Position numbers and translations under genes: made by a program. A stretch of 50,091 nucleotides of DNA, from contig NZ_FNOG01000007.1 of assembly GCF_900106525.1 (NCBI RefSeq), positions 315,735-365,825 of the forward strand, given 5' to 3'. This stretch comes from Lysobacter enzymogenes (lineage in GTDB: Bacteria; Pseudomonadota; Gammaproteobacteria; Xanthomonadales; Xanthomonadaceae). Below, piece after piece: positions 32,863 to 41,122 of the stretch (the stretch's first letter is position 1; each line of letters begins with the position of its first letter). The notes below the pieces were generated by a model. That model did no database searches. It had not been told where the DNA came from and saw only the letters and a list, made by a program, of their open reading frames with translations.

Positions 32863-33846
32863 ATGACCGGCGCCGAATCCGTCCCGCTCAAACGCGTCCG
32901 GACCGCGGCGGCCATTGCCCTCGCTTTGGCCGCGCTCGTCGCCGTGTACCTCATGGGCCGCCATCAGGGACGAACGGCAGCCCATGAGGATGCGCAGGGT
33001 CCGGTCGCCGCCGAAGGACAGGCGGCGGCCGCCACCCTTGCGCCGGCCGCGCTCGCCGCAGCCGGCGCCGCGCCGCCGGCGGGCACGCCGCTGCGGCGTG
33101 CGTTCCCGACCCTGCAGGCGCGCGCCGACGCCGGCGACCTCGCCGCCGCGACCCGGCTCTATCGCGACCTCAACCAATGCCGCGGCTTCGCCCGCCGCGA
33201 GCGCGATGTGCGCCGCTATTCCGACGAACTGCTGGCCGCGCGCGCCAACGCCACCGACCCGCGCCAGCGCGAAACCCTGCGCGCCGGGCTGGAAGCGGCC
33301 GAGGCCAACGAACGCACGCTCGATGCGCTGCGCGCGCAATGCCAAGGCGTCGATGACGCCATGCTCGGTTCGCTCGCCGCGAACCTGCAAAAAGCTGCGC
33401 TGCTGGGCGAACCGTATGCGCGCGCCTGCTATCTGGCGCGCGGCCCCGGCTTCGACGCGGCCGCGCTGCTCGACCATCCCGAACGCATCAGCGCTTACCG
33501 CGGCACCGCGCGCGCGCTGGTCGAACGCGGCATCGCCGACGGCGACTGGCGCGTGCTTGAGCAACTGCGCGGCGCGCTCGAACCCGGCGCCGACACGCTG
33601 CTGGCCGCCGCCGTTGGCAGGGATGCCGCGCAACGCTACCGTTACCTCAAGCTGTTCCGGCTCGGCGCGCCGCCGCAGCCGGGCGTTACCGACGAGGACC
33701 TGGCGATGGCCGCGGCCAAACTCAGCCCGACCCAGCTCGCCGACGCCGAGGCGTGGGCGACGCGGACCTTCAACCAGAACTTCCACGGCCGCGCCATCGA
33801 CGCCGACGGCCCGCTGTGGGATCCGTGCGTGTTCCCGTACGAATGA
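32863..33846 (+). CDS. Membrane-anchored helical protein, first of a tandem paralogous pair
   Basis: The 327-residue protein has an N-terminal membrane helix (about 14-32), an Ala/Pro-rich tether, and an all-helical periplasmic domain. The stretch FPTLQARADAGDLAAATRLYRDLNQC looks like a Sel1/TPR-type helical repeat, followed by a conserved ARACYL...RGP..D core. The gene at 33857 encodes a clear paralogue with the same blocks in the same order. The ATG at 32863 follows GAGGGG. The C-terminus ends in a conserved W-x-P/A-C motif (WDPCVF). Function unknown. Confidence 0.75.
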   Translation: MTGAESVPLKRVRTAAAIALALAALVAVYLMGRHQGRTAAHEDAQGPVAAEGQAAAATLAPAALAAAGAAPPAGTPLRRAFPTLQARADAGDLAAATRLYRDLNQCRGFARRERDVRRYSDELLAARANATDPRQRETLRAGLEAAEANERTLDALRAQCQGVDDAMLGSLAANLQKAALLGEPYARACYLARGPGFDAAALLDHPERISAYRGTARALVERGIADGDWRVLEQLRGALEPGADTLLAAAVGRDAAQRYRYLKLFRLGAPPQPGVTDEDLAMAAAKLSPTQLADAEAWATRTFNQNFHGRAIDADGPLWDPCVFPYE

Positions 33847-33856
33847 ACACATCCGA

Positions 33857-34834
33857 ATGAACGCATCCGCTCCCGCGCGCGGCCCGCGCCGCCTGCTGCT
33901 GACGGCGGCCGCGGTTGCGGCGCTGGCGGCGATCGTCGGCGCCTACTTCGCCGGCCGCGCCGGCGCCGTGCGTCCGGATTCGCACGTGCGCGTCGCCGCC
34001 GAAGCCGCCGCGGCCGCCGAGCCCGCCGCCGAGACCTGGCCGACGCCGATCAAGGGCGGCATCCTGCCCGCGCCGAACGCGCCGCTGAAGGACCACTTCG
34101 CCCAGTTGCAGGCGCGAGCCAACGCCGGCGATGCCGCCGCCGCGACCCGGCTGGTGCGCGACCTGGACCGGTGCAACCGCCTGCGCGGCGCGCAATGGCG
34201 CAACGCCGGCGCCACCGAGGCGCTGACCAGCCGCTCCACCGAAGGCATGACCGCGGCGCAGCTGCGCACCTATCAAACCCTGCTGGAGGCGATGGAACTG
34301 CGCCAGCAGCGCGAGCGCGAAGAACGCGCCGCCTGCGCCGGCGTCGACGAGCGCATGCTCGCCAGCCTGACCGCCAACATCGCCCAGGCCGCCCGGCTCG
34401 GCGACGAACAGGCGCGCGCCTGCTACCTCGAACGCGGCCCGCTGTACGACCCGCGCAGCCTGATCCGCCAGCCCGAGGCGCTGCGCAGCTACCGCGCGAG
34501 CGCGGCGCGGCTGGTCGAGACCGGGCTCGCCGCCGGCGACTGGCGCGTGGTCGATCTGCTGCAGCGCGCCTACGAGCCGGGTTCGACCAGCCTGCTGGGC
34601 GGATTGCTCGGCGCCGACCCACTGCAGCACTACCGCTATCTCAAGCTTTACCGGCTCGGCGCCGAAGCGCACCGCGCCGCGGAGCTGGACCGGCAACTGG
34701 CCGCGGTCGCCGCCGGCCTGGCCCCGGCCCAGCGCGCGCAGGCCGACGCCTGGGCGCAGAACACCCTCGATGCCGGCTTCCGCGGCCGCTCCACCGACGG
34801 CACCGCGCCGGGCTGGGAGGCCTGCGACTTCTAG
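33857..34834 (+). CDS. Membrane-anchored helical protein, second of a tandem paralogous pair
   Basis: The 325-residue paralogue of the preceding protein starts 10 bases after its stop. Matching blocks include FAQLQARANAGDAAAATRLVRDLDRC, LASLTANIAQAARLGDEQARACYLERGP, a GDWRVVDLLQ..EPG..SLL stretch and HYRYLKLYRLGA, plus a C-terminal WEACDF like WDPCVF. A membrane helix (about 13-31) anchors it. The pair arose by tandem duplication and is surely cotranscribed. Sel1-like helical repeats usually mediate protein contacts; the partner is unknown. Confidence 0.75.
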   Translation: MNASAPARGPRRLLLTAAAVAALAAIVGAYFAGRAGAVRPDSHVRVAAEAAAAAEPAAETWPTPIKGGILPAPNAPLKDHFAQLQARANAGDAAAATRLVRDLDRCNRLRGAQWRNAGATEALTSRSTEGMTAAQLRTYQTLLEAMELRQQREREERAACAGVDERMLASLTANIAQAARLGDEQARACYLERGPLYDPRSLIRQPEALRSYRASAARLVETGLAAGDWRVVDLLQRAYEPGSTSLLGGLLGADPLQHYRYLKLYRLGAEAHRAAELDRQLAAVAAGLAPAQRAQADAWAQNTLDAGFRGRSTDGTAPGWEACDF

Positions 34835-35097: not shown

Positions 35098-35562
35098 ATG
35101 CAGCGAACGACGATCGACATGTTGTTGGGGCGACTGGAGCCGGCCCCGCACGGCGAAGGCGCCGCGACGGCGCTGTTGGACGCGGAACTGCAGCGTTGCT
35201 GGCAACGGGTCCCCGGCCTGCGCGCCCTGTGCGTCTCCACCGCCGACGGCCGCGCCCTGGCCGAACGCATCGACGGCGGCATCGACGCCCGCCGGATCGC
35301 GGCGATGGCCAATTCCTTCCTAACCCTCGGCGAAACCCTGGCCGGCGAAATGGAACTCAGCCAGGCCGACTACGCCACCGTCTGCACTGCGCGCGGCAAC
35401 CTGGTGCTGTTCCGCGTCCACGCCGGCAAACCGCTGACCCTGCTGGCGATGGCCGGCCCCGACACCTTGCTGGCCGCATTGCTGGTGGGCGCGCGCGAAT
35501 GCGCCGCGCGCCTGGGCGCCGCGCTCGCCGCGCCGGCGCCGCCTGCGACCGTCCAACCCTGA
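35098..35562 (+). CDS. Roadblock/LC7-type protein (first of two)
   Basis: The 154-residue protein has an N-terminal helix, then the alpha/beta layout of Roadblock/LC7 (MglB-like) modules: VPGLRALCVSTADGRALAERIDG strand pair, a central helix (IAAMANSFLTLGETLAGEME), and a three-strand sheet (YATVCTARGNLVLFRVHA...LLAMAG) with a closing helix (30-140). Such proteins dimerise and act as regulators or GTPase-activating partners of Ras-like GTPases. A small GTPase gene closes this operon. The ATG at 35098 follows AGGAG. Confidence 0.72.
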   Translation: MQRTTIDMLLGRLEPAPHGEGAATALLDAELQRCWQRVPGLRALCVSTADGRALAERIDGGIDARRIAAMANSFLTLGETLAGEMELSQADYATVCTARGNLVLFRVHAGKPLTLLAMAGPDTLLAALLVGARECAARLGAALAAPAPPATVQP

Positions 35563-35693
35563 CCCGTCTTGCGCCCGCGCGCCGCCTGCGCGGCGACGGG
35601 CCGCGCGCGGCTGCGGCCTTGCCGCTTGCCCGCGCTGAGCCTTACCGCTGTCGCCTTACCGCAGATGCACCCACTCACGCAAAGGAGCTCGAG

Positions 35694-36053
35694 ATGTCGA
35701 AGTTGCAACTGGACGAACTGAACAACCTGGCCGGCTTCGTCGGCGCCGCGCTGGTCGACAGCGACAGCGGCATGTCGCTGGCCACCATCGGCGGCGGCGG
35801 ACTCGACCTGGAAACGGCCGCGGCCGGCAACTCCGAAGTGATCCGGGCCAAGCGCCGCGTCGCCCAGCAGCTCGGCCTCAACGACACCATCGAAGACATC
35901 CTGATCAGCCTGGGCAAGCAGTACCACCTGATCCGCCCGCTCGACAGCAACCCGACGCTGTTCCTGTACGTGGCCCTGGACCGTTCGCGCGCGAATCTGG
36001 CGATGGCCCGCCACGAGCTCAAGTCGTTCGAGAAGACCCTGGACTTCAAGTAA
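35694..36053 (+). CDS. Roadblock/LC7-type protein (second of two)
   Basis: The 119-residue protein is essentially one Roadblock-like domain: LAGFVGAALVDSDSGMSLATIGG as the first strand pair, a helix ending in RAKRRVAQQLGL, and IEDILISLGKQYHLIRPLD...LFLYVALDRSRANLAMARHELKSFE as the later sheet and final helix. It lacks the extra N-terminal helix of the upstream homologue. The ATG at 35694 follows AAAGGAG. With the neighbouring GTPase it resembles the CvnB-CvnD pairing in actinobacterial conservons. Confidence 0.75.
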   Translation: MSKLQLDELNNLAGFVGAALVDSDSGMSLATIGGGGLDLETAAAGNSEVIRAKRRVAQQLGLNDTIEDILISLGKQYHLIRPLDSNPTLFLYVALDRSRANLAMARHELKSFEKTLDFK

Positions 36054-36157
36054 GGCAGCGCAGCGATGACCGCATCGCGCGCGCACCGCCGCCGCGGCGG
36101 TCGTCGATGAGCCGGCAATGCGCGGCCGCAAGGCCGCGCCCTGGCCAGGAGGCATGG

Positions 36158-37117
36158 GTGGCATCCAAGCAGCGCTACGTGGTCGCCAGCGTCGACCTCG
36201 ACAAATCCCGCGACGCGCGGCTGCACGCCGCGCGCGAGCTGCTCGCCGGCGAACGCATCGACGTGGAACTGCGTCGCTGGGACGGGCGTCCGGCGCAGGT
36301 GCTGGTGGTCGGCACCGAGACCAGCGCCAGCCGCATGGCGGTGGACACCGCCTTGCGCAGCGGCATCCCGGTGGTGCGCATCGGCCGGCTGCCGTGGGAT
36401 CCCGACAGCGTGCGCTCGCTCGACCTCTACGCCGAACCCGGCGAGTTGTCGGCCTGCCTGCGCGAACGCCTGGACGCGCACGAACCCGCGCCCGCCGCCG
36501 ACCTGCTCGAACCCGCCGCGGCGCCGTTCCTGCGCCAACTGCTGGCGGCGTCCGAAAGCGGCGCCTGCCTGCTCGAACGCGGCCTGTTCCGGCTGGTGAT
36601 CGACCTGAGCGATGCGCGCGTGCACATGCTGCGGCGCATGCCGTATCCGGCGCTGATCGGCGAGGCGTTGGCGCCGAACTGGTTCGTCACGCCGTTGTCG
36701 CCGCGCCGCTACGCCGAAGAATTCGCCCAGGACGTGACCGCGAGCTATCCGCTGGAATCGGTGCTGTGGGACATCGCGCTGGCGCACGAGGCGCCGATCG
36801 CCGACGTCGCGCCCGAACGCGCACTGCGCCTGCGCGCCTGGCCGCTGCTGTCGGCCAACCAGTTGCCGGTGCACTGGCTGCTGCCGCTGAGCTGCCTGCT
36901 CGAACGCGCCTGGGCGCTGCCGCAGCTGGCCCAGGCGACGGCGACGCCGTCGCTGGAACTCGAACGCATGTACGCCGCGGTGCTGGCCAGCGGCCTGGCC
37001 GACGGCGAAGCCGCGGCCGCGCCGTCGCCGCCGCGGCGCGCGCCCGACGCGCGCGCGCCCGGCCTGCTGAGCCGGCTGGCGCGCCGTTTCGGCCTGAACC
37101 TGGGACGCGGGCAATGA
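36158..37117 (+). CDS. Unknown protein of the Roadblock-GTPase operon
   Basis: The 319-residue protein has no signal peptide or membrane helix. The first 80 residues read like a small alpha/beta domain (QRYVVASVDLDKSRDARL, then AQVLVVGTE and IPVVRIGRLPW). The middle is helical and Leu/Glu/Ala-rich, and the end is a basic, Pro/Arg-rich tail. The start is taken as GTG at 36158, since AGGAGG lies 5 bases upstream; the ATG at 36107 has no ribosome site. The stop overlaps the GTPase start in ATGA. I know no family. It may be an adaptor or effector of the GTPase. Confidence 0.68.
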   Translation: MASKQRYVVASVDLDKSRDARLHAARELLAGERIDVELRRWDGRPAQVLVVGTETSASRMAVDTALRSGIPVVRIGRLPWDPDSVRSLDLYAEPGELSACLRERLDAHEPAPAADLLEPAAAPFLRQLLAASESGACLLERGLFRLVIDLSDARVHMLRRMPYPALIGEALAPNWFVTPLSPRRYAEEFAQDVTASYPLESVLWDIALAHEAPIADVAPERALRLRAWPLLSANQLPVHWLLPLSCLLERAWALPQLAQATATPSLELERMYAAVLASGLADGEAAAAPSPPRRAPDARAPGLLSRLARRFGLNLGRGQ

Positions 37118-37665
37118 GCGAATTGATCAAGCTGGCCTTCGTCGGCGACATGGGCGCCGGCAAGACCACCGCCATCCGCGCGATTTCCGACCGCGAGCCG
37201 ATCAGCACCGAAATGCCGATCAGCCACGCCACGCTGGGCGAGAAGACCCACACCACGGTGGCGATGGACTACAGCACCATCGAACTCGACGACGGCGAAC
37301 TGCTGCACGTCTACGGCGTGCCCGGCCAGCGCTATCTGGACTTCATGTGGCCGCTGGTGTGCGAAGGCGCGGTCGGCATCGTGGTGCTGGTCGCCGCCGA
37401 CGGCCCCGACATGGTCAACCAGGCCGACGCGATGCTGCGCGAGTTCGCCCGCATCGCCCCGGACGCAGCGTTCGCGGTCGGCGTCACCCGCGCCGACCTC
37501 AGCGACGATTTCGCCCTGCTGGAATTCCGCGACGCGCTCGGCCGCCGCGGCCACCGCCTGCCGATGGCGCGGCTGGACGCGCGCGACGCGGCCCAGGTGG
37601 AGACGCTGATCCGCATGCTGCTGTCGTATCGCTACGCGGAGGCGAAGGTCAACGCGGTGGCGTGA
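37114..37665 (+). CDS. Small GTPase of the conservon (CvnD-like) type
   Basis: The 183-residue GTPase has a Walker A loop GDMGAGKTT (11-19), a switch region KTHTTVAMDYSTIELDDGE, and YGVPGQRYLDFMW in place of the canonical D-x-x-G-Q: the Asp is replaced as in CvnD proteins (FGTPGQDRFWFMW). The base-specificity motif is VTRAD (for NKxD) and the last motif LDARD. It overlaps the upstream gene by 4 bases. Roadblock-type proteins encoded upstream are likely regulators. In actinobacteria such GTPases work with a sensor kinase and DUF742 protein; neither is present here. Role: cytoplasmic signalling switch. Confidence 0.82.
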   Translation: MSELIKLAFVGDMGAGKTTAIRAISDREPISTEMPISHATLGEKTHTTVAMDYSTIELDDGELLHVYGVPGQRYLDFMWPLVCEGAVGIVVLVAADGPDMVNQADAMLREFARIAPDAAFAVGVTRADLSDDFALLEFRDALGRRGHRLPMARLDARDAAQVETLIRMLLSYRYAEAKVNAVA

Positions 37666-37695: not shown

Positions 37696-38682
37696 TCAGC
37701 GCGTAGCCGCGTCGTCGGCATAGAAGCCCGAGCGCTGCACGAACGCCTCCACCGCGGCCTGATCGGTGCAATCCAGTTCGACGATCTCGCGCAGCGCGCG
37801 TTTGTGGTCGCGGGCTCGGGCGTAGTAGTCGCGCACGATCGCATAGCCCATGTAATAGCCCAGGTCGCGCACGCCGTAGCGTGGGTCGGGTGCGTTGTAG
37901 AGCCATTTGGCGTAGGAGGTCTCGTGCATTTCGGCGCGGAAGTCGCGCTTGAGCCGGGCTTCGTTCTGCCGGCCGTAACGCACGTAGTCCAGCGGCGGCA
38001 GCTTGCCGGTGGCGCGTTCGGCGACGAAGTCGGCGGCGCCTTCGTAGATCGCCTGCGCCAGCAGGGTCGGGCCGGGGCCCTTCTGCTGGGTGTGCACGTA
38101 CTCGTGCACCAGCAGCAGCGGCAGCCCGTCGGCGGGGCGGGTGGCGAAGTAGTTGCGCAGGTTGCGCTGGCGCGATTCCGGCATCTCCGACACGTCGGTG
38201 TCCGGGCCGCCGCCGGCCAGTTCCGCGCCGATCAGCACCTTGTCGCCCAGGGTTGTGCCGCTGGAGTTGAGGCAGCCGATGGCGAAATACACCGTCGCCG
38301 GCCGCAGCGGCGGATACAGCTTGCGCAAGGCGGCGATGCGCTGCGGCGCGTCGGCGGTCTTGTCCGCCAGCGCCAGGGTGCCGGCGCGCACCGAGGCCCA
38401 GAACTTGGGATAGCGTTCGATCGCGTCGAGATAGCACTCCGGCGTATAGCCCCTGGCCTGCATGAACGCCTGCAGGCCCGGGGTGCCGGGCTCGATGTAT
38501 TCGCGCAGCAGCGCGCGGCGTTTTTCGGCCGGGTCGGCGCTGGCGCGGATCGCGTCGAAGGCGGTCCAAAAGCGCGTCACGTCCGCCGATTCGAGCGAGT
38601 GCGCCTGCGCGGCCGCGGGCAACGCCGCGACTGCCAGCGACGCCGCGCAACACCACGCCGCAACGGCGATCCTGAAGTTCAT
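37696..38682 (-). CDS. Secreted zinc metallopeptidase-like protein (HExxH, DUF2268/GldB-like)
   Basis: The 328-residue protein has a signal peptide (about 1-26). The active site reads LLVHEYVHTQQ (His193, Glu194, His197), with a second acidic element YEGAADF (Glu214) as the expected third zinc ligand. This gluzincin-like layout fits DUF2268-type predicted proteases and GldB-related proteins. The ATG at 38682 begins the hydrophobic signal; upstream sequence is non-coding-like. It is the last minus-strand gene below the heme locus, 95 bases from tonB, and may be coexpressed. Whether it processes the hemophore or is independent is unknown. Confidence 0.72.
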   Translation of the reverse strand: MNFRIAVAAWCCAASLAVAALPAAAQAHSLESADVTRFWTAFDAIRASADPAEKRRALLREYIEPGTPGLQAFMQARGYTPECYLDAIERYPKFWASVRAGTLALADKTADAPQRIAALRKLYPPLRPATVYFAIGCLNSSGTTLGDKVLIGAELAGGGPDTDVSEMPESRQRNLRNYFATRPADGLPLLLVHEYVHTQQKGPGPTLLAQAIYEGAADFVAERATGKLPPLDYVRYGRQNEARLKRDFRAEMHETSYAKWLYNAPDPRYGVRDLGYYMGYAIVRDYYARARDHKRALREIVELDCTDQAAVEAFVQRSGFYADDAATR

Positions 38683-38777
38683 AAGCGGTCTCGCACAGCC
38701 GGAAGACCGAGATGATGACCGCGCTGCGCCGAACCGCGCAGGCCCGGAAGTCACGCGCCGCGCTCAGCGCGCGACGC

Positions 38778-39640: not shown

Positions 39641-41122
39641 TCAAAACGCGCGCTCCAGCTTGAGGCTGACGATGTCGCGATCGTAGGAATACAGCCAGTC
39701 GATCGAGCTGGCGATGCGGTTGTGCTTGAAGGTCAGGCTGGGCACGAAGCCGGCGACGGCCCAGCGCGGCGCGCGCACGATCGCGGTGGCGTTGAACTCG
39801 TCGTCGCGGCGGCGCGCCTGGAAGGTCTCGTTCCACTCGTCGTGGCCGCGCTTGCGCAACGACGCGAACAACAGCAGCGACACGCCGGCGTCGAACTGCT
39901 TGGACAGGCCCAGGCGCACGCCGCGCTGCAGATAGGCTTCGGTGGCGCGGCGGGTGTCGCGGCGGGCGAGGTCGATGCCGCCGAACAGCATCCATTGCTG
40001 CGGCAGCGCGCGCCACAGCGTGGCGTAGACCGCGCCGGTCGGGCCGTCGTAGCCGGCCAGGTCGGCGCGGCGGTAACGCATGCGCTTGTAGTCGCCTTCC
40101 AGCTTGAACAGCCAGCGCGGCGAGATCGTCCAGGTCCAGTCGGCGCGCGCGCCCCAGGCGCCATACAGGCTGCGGTTGCCGAACGCGGCGTACTCGAACT
40201 GCGGCGCCGCGGTGAAGGCGTGGCGCGCGGCGGCGTAGGAATAGCCGGCGCTGCCGGTCCAGGTGGTTTCGTTGTACTGGCGGTTGCCGCGATACGAATA
40301 GCCGTACAACAGCGAGCGCAGGTACAGGCCGTGGTGGCCGCGCAGCGGCTGGCGCTTGCTCAGGCTGGCGTCGTAGTCCAGCCCCGCGCCGGCGATCGCT
40401 GGGGGCAGGCTGCGCTCGATCGCGCACTGGCCGTCCGGCGCCGCCAGCAGGCAGGTACGGCTAGCCGAGGACTGGTTGATGTTGTCGTTCCAGCTCGGCC
40501 CCAGCGCGAAGCTGCCGTGCCAGCCGCGACGGTTGCGCAGCGCGCGCAGGAAAGTGTCGACGGTGCGGCGCACGCCGGCGGTCTTGGCGTCGCCGGCGTC
40601 GAGCGAATCGGCGATGGCCTGGAAACGCTGCTCGGCTTCGCGGTCGAGCTGGTTCTCGAACAGCACCCGCGCCAGCTCCAGCCGCGCGGGCAGGAAGTCG
40701 GCCTGCAATTCCAGCAGCGCGCGGTAGTCGCGCTCGGCGCCGGCGAGGTCGCCGTCGGCGCGGGCCAGCGCGCCTTGCGCATACAGTTCGAGCATGCGGT
40801 CGCGTTGCGGCAGCGCGCGATAGCCCTGCTGCAGGCGCCGCGCGCGCGGCCACTGGCGCGCGCCGACGGCCTGGTAGAGCGCCGCGGCCAGCGCATCGGG
40901 GTCGCGCGGATCGGCATCGGCGGAGCGCTCGGCGCCGTCGCCCGCAGCGCCTTCGGATTCCAGCAAGGTGCGCTCGCGCTCGCTCTGGCGCTGCTCCAAG
41001 CCGTGGTCCAGGCGCAGGCGGGTGTCGTCGCGGTCCTGTGCGGACGCGGCGAAGGAATACAGGCACAGCGCCAGCCCGGCAGCGAAGCCGGTGGCGCCGA
41101 AGAGAATTCGATAGCGCTTCAT
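39641..41122 (-). CDS. Surface lipoprotein assembly modifier (Slam, DUF560) outer-membrane translocator
   Basis: The 493-residue protein has a signal peptide (1-28), an N-terminal TPR-like periplasmic domain (about 70-190, Ala/Leu/Arg-rich helices), and a beta-barrel (about 200-493) starting at GWHGSFALGPSWNDNINQSS and ending in the aromatic KLERAF. This is the layout of Slam, which moves TbpB-like and hemophilin-like proteins across the outer membrane. It follows directly after a hemophilin-like gene, separated by an 11-bp hairpin, and precedes tonB. Substrate and translocator adjacency is the strongest argument for this call. Confidence 0.85.
   Translation of the reverse strand: MKRYRILFGATGFAAGLALCLYSFAASAQDRDDTRLRLDHGLEQRQSERERTLLESEGAAGDGAERSADADPRDPDALAAALYQAVGARQWPRARRLQQGYRALPQRDRMLELYAQGALARADGDLAGAERDYRALLELQADFLPARLELARVLFENQLDREAEQRFQAIADSLDAGDAKTAGVRRTVDTFLRALRNRRGWHGSFALGPSWNDNINQSSASRTCLLAAPDGQCAIERSLPPAIAGAGLDYDASLSKRQPLRGHHGLYLRSLLYGYSYRGNRQYNETTWTGSAGYSYAAARHAFTAAPQFEYAAFGNRSLYGAWGARADWTWTISPRWLFKLEGDYKRMRYRRADLAGYDGPTGAVYATLWRALPQQWMLFGGIDLARRDTRRATEAYLQRGVRLGLSKQFDAGVSLLLFASLRKRGHDEWNETFQARRRDDEFNATAIVRAPRWAVAGFVPSLTFKHNRIASSIDWLYSYDRDIVSLKLERAF

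Follow-up and report, generated by a model that had tools for sequence, protein, structure and literature searches.

The stretch analysed here, called the window throughout, comprises 50,091 nucleotides of the Lysobacter enzymogenes genome (NCBI RefSeq assembly GCF_900106525.1, contig NZ_FNOG01000007.1, positions 315,735 to 365,825 of the forward strand). At positions 35,098 to 37,665 it carries four co-conserved genes, which encode an MglA-type GTPase, two MglB-type Roadblock proteins (RblA and RblB) and a modular protein, here designated UNK, whose N-terminal half is variable and whose C-terminus consists of a core and a tail. The four genes probably constitute a Group 3 MglA signalling module, for which we propose a sensor-adaptor mechanism. 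Because a BLUF domain replaces the N-terminal half on a homologous C-terminal core in some relatives, the sequences suggest that UNK is the sensor-adaptor of the GTPase.

All four open reading frames (ORFs) are on the + strand. RblA (35098..35562, 154 aa), a Roadblock/LC7 protein that recurs in the module, and RblB (35694..36053, 119 aa), a second one, are followed by UNK (36158..37117, 319 aa), which has matches across genomes of the family, and by the MglA-family GTPase (37114..37665, 183 aa), recognised by family match, motifs and tree position. AGGAG-like sequences, read directly from the DNA, precede RblA, RblB and UNK, and the UNK and GTPase genes overlap by ATGA. UNK starts at a GTG with AGGAGG 5 bases ahead of it; translation from the in-frame ATG at 36107 would yield 336 aa. 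A scan for sigma-70-type promoters found none. Both Roadblock proteins score narrowly over the Pfam Robl_LC7 cut-off of 23 bits (RblA, 23.1 bits; RblB, 24.7 bits) and are the only two Robl_LC7 matches (E 0.001) in the 6.26 Mb genome, in which the GTPase query likewise finds only the window GTPase.

We asked how typical the association of the four genes is. Matches to UNK were present in 13 of 119 sampled genomes of the family, the window's own included, and the distribution is patchy even within the genus: out of five genomes, the window's own and G090 match UNK and three do not. In the closest fetched relative, Lysobacter sp. yr284 (L002), UNK is 86 percent and the GTPase 92 percent identical to the window proteins. 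Of the 13 loci retrieved through UNK (L002 and L017-L028), 12 contain all four genes; G064 also matched UNK but is absent from this long-region set. At L026 (5564-6769), a UNK homologue stands alone upstream of an ORF that by eye is dxs-like, with GTPase and Roadblock genes undetected in 13 kb.

RblB was used as a second bait to lessen the bias of baiting with UNK. It matched 12 of 274 genomes of the class, 33 of 398 of the phylum and 43 of 200 of the order (own genome included; the samples overlap). We analysed 56 RblB loci, namely 16 regions from the class search and 40 from the phylum and order searches, a set that does not include every match. It turned out that 38 of them contain all four genes, counted when detected anywhere in the 4 to 20 kb that had been fetched, regardless of order or strand; five have RblB, RblA and the GTPase together with a different small protein. 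The small proteins at the UNK position in L140, L145, L146, L150 and L151 have no match to the UNK core. They looked PATAN-like by eye, an idea we dropped when no such Pfam match was found at E 0.05, and a comparison of the five other small proteins with DUF4388 likewise gave no Pfam match at that threshold. Of 18 later RblB loci outside the 56, all four genes were detected in 14; in L257 and L270 only RblB is present, L265 is truncated by its contig, and L269 has in the place of UNK a BLUF protein that the UNK profile missed. The common gene orders are that of the window (RblA-RblB-UNK-GTPase), UNK-GTPase-RblA-RblB and RblB-UNK-GTPase-RblA. The first two are largely split along two branches of the GTPase tree (exceptions include L126, L115 and L050), and the third is seen in fused-BLUF modules and in a small number of other loci. 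The tight operon of a GTPase, two Roadblock proteins and an unrecognised partner reported in the initial annotation is borne out, and both surveys find the four genes conserved together.

Next, we focused on UNK itself. The protein has no match at E 1 or better in Pfam or NCBIfam, enzyme families included. A profile of 10 UNK homologues found nothing better than E 0.044 in the Protein Data Bank (PDB), and a Pfam search with 51 proteins, 46 of them UNK-type, gave no match better than E 0.0023. Alignment reveals conserved N-terminal and C-terminal parts in this protein, whose gene adjoins that of the GTPase. The N-terminal domain (approximately aa 1-110, 36158..36487), for which a receiver-like structure has been predicted with Phyre2 in this protein family, is the place taken by BLUF in relatives; by eye, the alignment has no conserved Asp at the likely phospho-acceptor position. 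The C-terminal part (approximately aa 222-285, 36821..37012) comprises a WP motif and a probable winged helix, and this core is common to the BLUF form. It is followed by a cationic tail, GLLSRLARRFGLN (aa 302-314, 37061..37099), in which A-x-R-F-G-L is invariant in all 10 members of alignment A1. All 48 tails examined carry a net positive charge, as judged by the best 14-residue segment of the last 26 residues; the 48 are the window protein and those of 47 out of 50 full loci, the UNK rows of L021, L027 and L114 being excluded for broken or split frames. We also considered that the tail might be a strongly amphipathic helix, but support was only modest, with a hydrophobic moment little above that of shuffled tails. 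L255 and L267 encode minimal UNK proteins of about 115 aa, consisting only of core and tail, and L262 a still shorter piece.

The idea that UNK is a sensor-adaptor stems from the BLUF-bearing relatives. A BLUF domain is encoded by the ORF that separates RblB from the GTPase in L059, L060 and L061 (Pfam E 2.6e-19, 3.5e-21 and 7.5e-24, respectively). As the survey profile of UNK had been iterated on ORFs including three BLUF proteins, the independent test was a profile built without them. This BLUF-free profile (53 rows) matched the BLUF proteins of L059-L061 among 7253 ORFs with E values of 1.4e-7 to 2.7e-6. The match spans 75-95 residues at their C-termini (within positions 205 to 301 of 306) and scores 25.8-30.0 bits, compared with 4.7 for the best residue-shuffled copy (121 of 1500 such copies scored). 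Moreover, alignment of the UNK core with the BLUF-form core by hhalign gave 97.8 percent, with none of 100 column shuffles as high.

To see how these proteins are distributed, we turned to 109 genomes around one BLUF host, 13 of which matched, 12 of them from one genus. Among 19 matched BLUF places, nine (L159-L166 and L172) have the BLUF protein flanked by RblB, the GTPase and RblA, three of these being L060, L061 and L059 again. In L173 RblB and RblA are present with the GTPase undetected, in L167 the contig ends after RblB, and eight BLUF proteins have no module gene within their 1.5 kb flanks. Two further fused-BLUF modules, L268 and L269, have the gene order of the window. In L258 and L259, a separate BLUF ORF meets a short ORF for core and tail (stop-to-stop overlaps of 19 and 10 bases). 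At L130 (3884-5652), the BLUF ORF and the core-and-tail ORF are read in different frames, and after them come a second, full-length UNK and then the GTPase; here, one GTPase may have two alternative adaptors. Since the same split is seen in three genomes, sequencing error is less likely as the origin of the separate ORFs. In modules with a GTPase, BLUF is thus fused in 11 and a neighbouring gene in 3. The GTPases of the fused-BLUF modules cluster in a single clade of 11 rows (100/94), nested in a larger clade of 24 rows (100/100), which also holds the three split rows and 10 rows with no BLUF seen, a label that for these and all other such tree rows does not stand for a confirmed receiver.

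The residues Tyr, Asn and Gln, which we take to be the photoactive ones of BLUF domains, are kept in 10 of 12 fused BLUF proteins, with Gly in place of Gln in L172 and L173. The three split BLUF proteins have Asn and Gln, with Tyr outside the alignment. Asn and Gln also align with solved BLUF proteins, in alignments that begin past Tyr. The genomes of L172 and L173 each have a second, intact copy of the BLUF adaptor (L160 and L165), possibly making up a pair of a light-sensing and a light-blind protein. We found no title or abstract in the open-licence literature that links BLUF with roadblock and GTPase or with MglA; as far as these searches go, the BLUF-bearing modules are an undescribed variant.

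The module as a whole can be placed among known MglA systems. A survey published in 2014 (Wuichet and Sogaard-Andersen, PMC4316618) defined five MglA groups. Its main text describes Group 3, spread over beta- and gamma-proteobacteria, as systems in which MglA is coupled to one or two MglBs and to an uncharacterised protein. This protein has no Pfam match; Phyre2 indicated for it a receiver-like N-terminus and a winged-helix C-terminus, and the authors suggested it to be a DNA-binding response regulator (PMC4316618). Although no Pfam model matches it, the partner is therefore not the new component that the initial annotation had considered it to be. In the same survey, Group 3 GTPases have GTPGQ as their G3 motif and DAR as G5, the G2 Thr has no Arg next to it and Lys is often missing from G4; an Asp-Gly pair is noted for MglB of Groups 2-5 (PMC4316618). 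The window has one GTPase and two Robl_LC7 genes, a partner without a Pfam match, the motif set and a GTPase of the proteobacterial clade; RblA carries the Asp-Gly pair (STADGR), and RblB has Asp-Ser-Gly instead. Owing to this gene set, the GTPase motifs, the GTPase tree and the Asp-Gly pair of RblA, the module fits a Group 3 MglA system and not a conservon.

The GTPase data are as follows. The window protein scores over the Pfam cut-off for ATP_bind_1, with other GTPase families matching below theirs, and its best PDB relative is MglA (E 4.4e-4). Its motifs are GDMGAGKTT (G1), TT (G2), YGVPGQ (G3), TRAD without Lys (G4) and DAR (G5). We compared 63 module GTPases, including five from loci with a different small protein. 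All 63 have G-x-PGQ and none the Asp of DxxGQ, so the YGVPGQ singled out in the initial annotation is present but normal for the group. G2 is TT in 62 and Arg-Thr in none, G4 has Lys in 8 (five of them from loci with another small protein), and G5 is D-x-R in 59, of which 31 are DAR. NxFD in G4 is found in 11 of 11 CvnD proteins (10 of these sequences come from loci with an annotated DUF742) and in none of the 63 module GTPases. When 95 GTPases were placed in a tree, none of them labelled Group 3 by PMC4316618, 74 proteobacterial sequences form one clade (98/95), and the 11 CvnD sequences form a separate clade (100/99) outside it. The earlier description of the module as conservon-like and of its GTPase as CvnD-type is not upheld by these results. 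On the other hand, the initial annotation rightly noted that sensor kinase and DUF742 are missing, as ORFs and Pfam reveal neither among the four genes of the window, and its proposal of a proteobacterial signalling or polarity switch is plausible.

The C-terminal core may reach beyond Group 3. Comparison of the UNK core with MglA-linked proteins of Thermus and Deinococcus, two of five of which are annotated as DUF4388, gave 93 percent in hhalign over 106 columns, with 0 of 100 column shuffles as high; the winged-helix controls MarR and GntR reached 19 and 1.7 percent. With DUF742, the UNK core gave 51 percent over 41 columns and a score of 28.0 versus 23.5 for MarR, again with 0 of 100 column shuffles as high. 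DUF742 proteins have 100-142 aa, about the size of minimal UNK. The likeness to DUF742 is suggestive but not decisive. The earlier remark that UNK sits where DUF742 would be may thus mean something, given the 51 percent against 19 for MarR, but the BLUF-form core, at 0.9 percent, does not share in it. Two results speak against a universal core: taken alone, the BLUF-form core fails to match the Thermus/Deinococcus proteins or DUF742, and DUF742 compared with the Thermus/Deinococcus profiles gave 35.5 percent. It is possible, though we put it forward only tentatively, that a winged-helix adaptor with a cationic tail, perhaps including DUF742, is common to MglA-type switches and takes receiver-like, DUF4388 or BLUF inputs, in which case the BLUF form would be a natural, directly light-gated small GTPase switch.

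How might the Group 3 module work? The N-terminal domain of UNK would take in a signal, which in the BLUF relatives would be blue light. The winged helix and tail would then relay the signal, whether they promote GTP loading of the GTPase or tether it. For GTP loading, a published parallel is found in Myxococcus, where, according to abstracts, the receiver protein RomR together with RomX is a guanine nucleotide exchange factor and MglA acts on pili. RblA, with its Asp-Gly pair, and RblB would form the GTPase-activating side and reset the switch. By analogy with Myxococcus MglA and the Group 3 system of Snodgrassella, the GTP-bound GTPase would most likely act on type IV pili or surface motility. 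We infer the direction of control, from UNK to the GTPase, from domain architecture. Elsewhere in the genome there are three PilT-family matches over the cut-off, which mean only that pili are possible.

Experimental findings on a Group 3 system come from the bee symbiont Snodgrassella, whose mglA belongs to this group (Meng et al. 2024, PMC11112851). Mutation of an orphan mglB, related to the mglB-2 beside mglA, altered motility that was taken as type IV pilus-dependent and gave an advantage in a non-native host; moreover, a re-reading of older transposon-sequencing data indicated that all three mglB genes are beneficial for gut colonisation (PMC11112851). The lone RblB genes of our survey would fit this orphan-mglB picture. 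RblB is also the best conserved of RblB, UNK and the GTPase, with 56-90 percent identity to the window protein in seven aligned relatives, compared with 38-77 percent for the GTPase and 22-86 percent for UNK. Lone RblB-type genes were even found on five viral-classed IMG/VR contigs (L152, L153, L154, L155 and L156), where profiles detected no RblA, UNK or GTPase within 5 kb flanks; GTPase and UNK queries found no relatives on viral contigs. In L156, the RblB-type gene adjoins an ORF that by eye resembles a phage terminase. As to UNK and the Group 3 GTPase, no biochemical study was found in the open-licence literature, which mostly leaves subscription papers aside.

A number of observations weigh against a sensor-adaptor switch that acts on motility. 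In 13 of the 56 RblB loci, RblB occurs without the other three genes (including L063, whose contig has only 4 kb). With hhalign, the UNK N-terminal domain showed no similarity to 27 genuine receivers (0.2 percent). An AlphaFold2 model of UNK built from two sequences (window and L002) had a pLDDT of 40 and was unusable. Winged-helix matches are weak and confined to single members (MarR_2, DprA_WH, HTH_29 and HTH_IclR), and the hydrophobic moment of the tail has a median of 0.575, against 0.448 for shuffled tails and 0.54 for RblB C-termini. The BLUF-form core gave 0.0 percent with the Thermus/Deinococcus proteins and 0.9 percent with DUF742. There is no motility gene in the operon, and in Snodgrassella the excerpts at hand ascribe the motility effect to the orphan and only a colonisation benefit to the operon mglB genes (PMC11112851).

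Could UNK instead be a DNA-binding response regulator, so that the module controls transcription and the GTPase or the Roadblock proteins gate the winged helix? Such an architecture and this suggestion are published (PMC4316618), and the single-member winged-helix matches and the 19 percent obtained with MarR are weak pointers in the same direction. We nonetheless regard it as unlikely, since no DNA-binding family matched the window UNK at E 1 and none matched other members better than E 0.0022, and since a short cationic tail follows the core in the 48 proteins examined. Moreover, a related core is found beside MglA in Thermus and Deinococcus. In these bacteria MglA acts on pili and is not known to act on transcription.

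Another explanation takes the tail for a membrane-targeting helix and UNK chiefly for a tether that holds the GTPase at the membrane or pole; the N-terminus would then not be a sensor. The invariably net positive tails would suit such a role, as would the forms reduced to core and tail (L255, L267 and the shorter piece in L262), but the fact that BLUF, a known photosensor, takes the place of the N-terminal half speaks for a sensory function of that half, and the hydrophobic moment exceeds that of shuffled tails only modestly, which makes this explanation improbable. Least of all do we expect the module to be a proteobacterial conservon, a CvnA-D relative with its kinase lost and DUF742 replaced by UNK: for all the similar parts, the gene adjacency and the weak DUF742-like winged helix (51 percent, no column shuffle as high), the CvnD clade lies outside the proteobacterial one, NxFD separates the two sets completely, neither kinase nor DUF742 is among the four genes, the DUF742 score of 28.0 is little above the MarR control at 23.5, and the BLUF-form core reaches 0.9 percent.

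A BLUF domain at the UNK position provides a handle with a known stimulus, as the role of UNK becomes testable by switching light on and off. Should light change the state of the GTPase, homology would carry the role of this position over to the window module, and such a compact natural GTPase under light control would make a useful tool.

The neighbourhood of the four genes was inspected by eye. Upstream (32863-34834) lie two tandem ORFs of about 300 aa that look like paralogues and have membrane-anchor-like starts (ARADAGDLAAATRL and ARANAGDAAAATRL). Downstream, a converging ORF on the - strand (37696-38754) has an HEYVH motif and perhaps encodes a zinc metalloprotease. Another - strand ORF (39641-41122), with a TPR-like start and a barrel-like end, adjoins a proline-rich TonB-like ORF.

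Finally, we compared the module with known systems. Group 1 MglA/MglB/RomR of Myxococcus and Thermus likewise has a GTPase, a Roadblock GTPase-activating protein and a receiver-domain regulator. However, its GTPase is described in the main text of the 2014 survey as having TVPGQ and an Arg beside the G2 Thr (PMC4316618), whereas the module GTPases have Thr at that position in 62 of 63 cases and Arg in none. The conservon CvnABCD (Group 2) resembles the module in its operon of Roadblock protein and MglA-family GTPase, GTPGQ-type G3, DAR G5 and small partner beside the GTPase. In contrast to the window, DUF742 is annotated in 10 of 11 conservon loci and an "ATP-binding protein" stands at the kinase place in most, and the conservon GTPases differ in their NxFD G4 and separate clade. 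The Snodgrassella mgl locus also combines a Group 3 mglA with two adjacent mglB genes, but has an extra orphan mglB, whereas both Robl_LC7 matches of the window genome are in the operon; BLUF, receiver and winged helix go unmentioned in the excerpts of that paper at hand (PMC11112851). With Group 3 as described in PMC4316618, the module shares a beta/gamma-proteobacterial host range, MglA with MglBs, a two-part protein and the G3, G4 and G5 motifs. To that description, in whose main text BLUF has 0 occurrences, the present analysis adds the BLUF form, the cationic tail and the match to the Thermus/Deinococcus partner.

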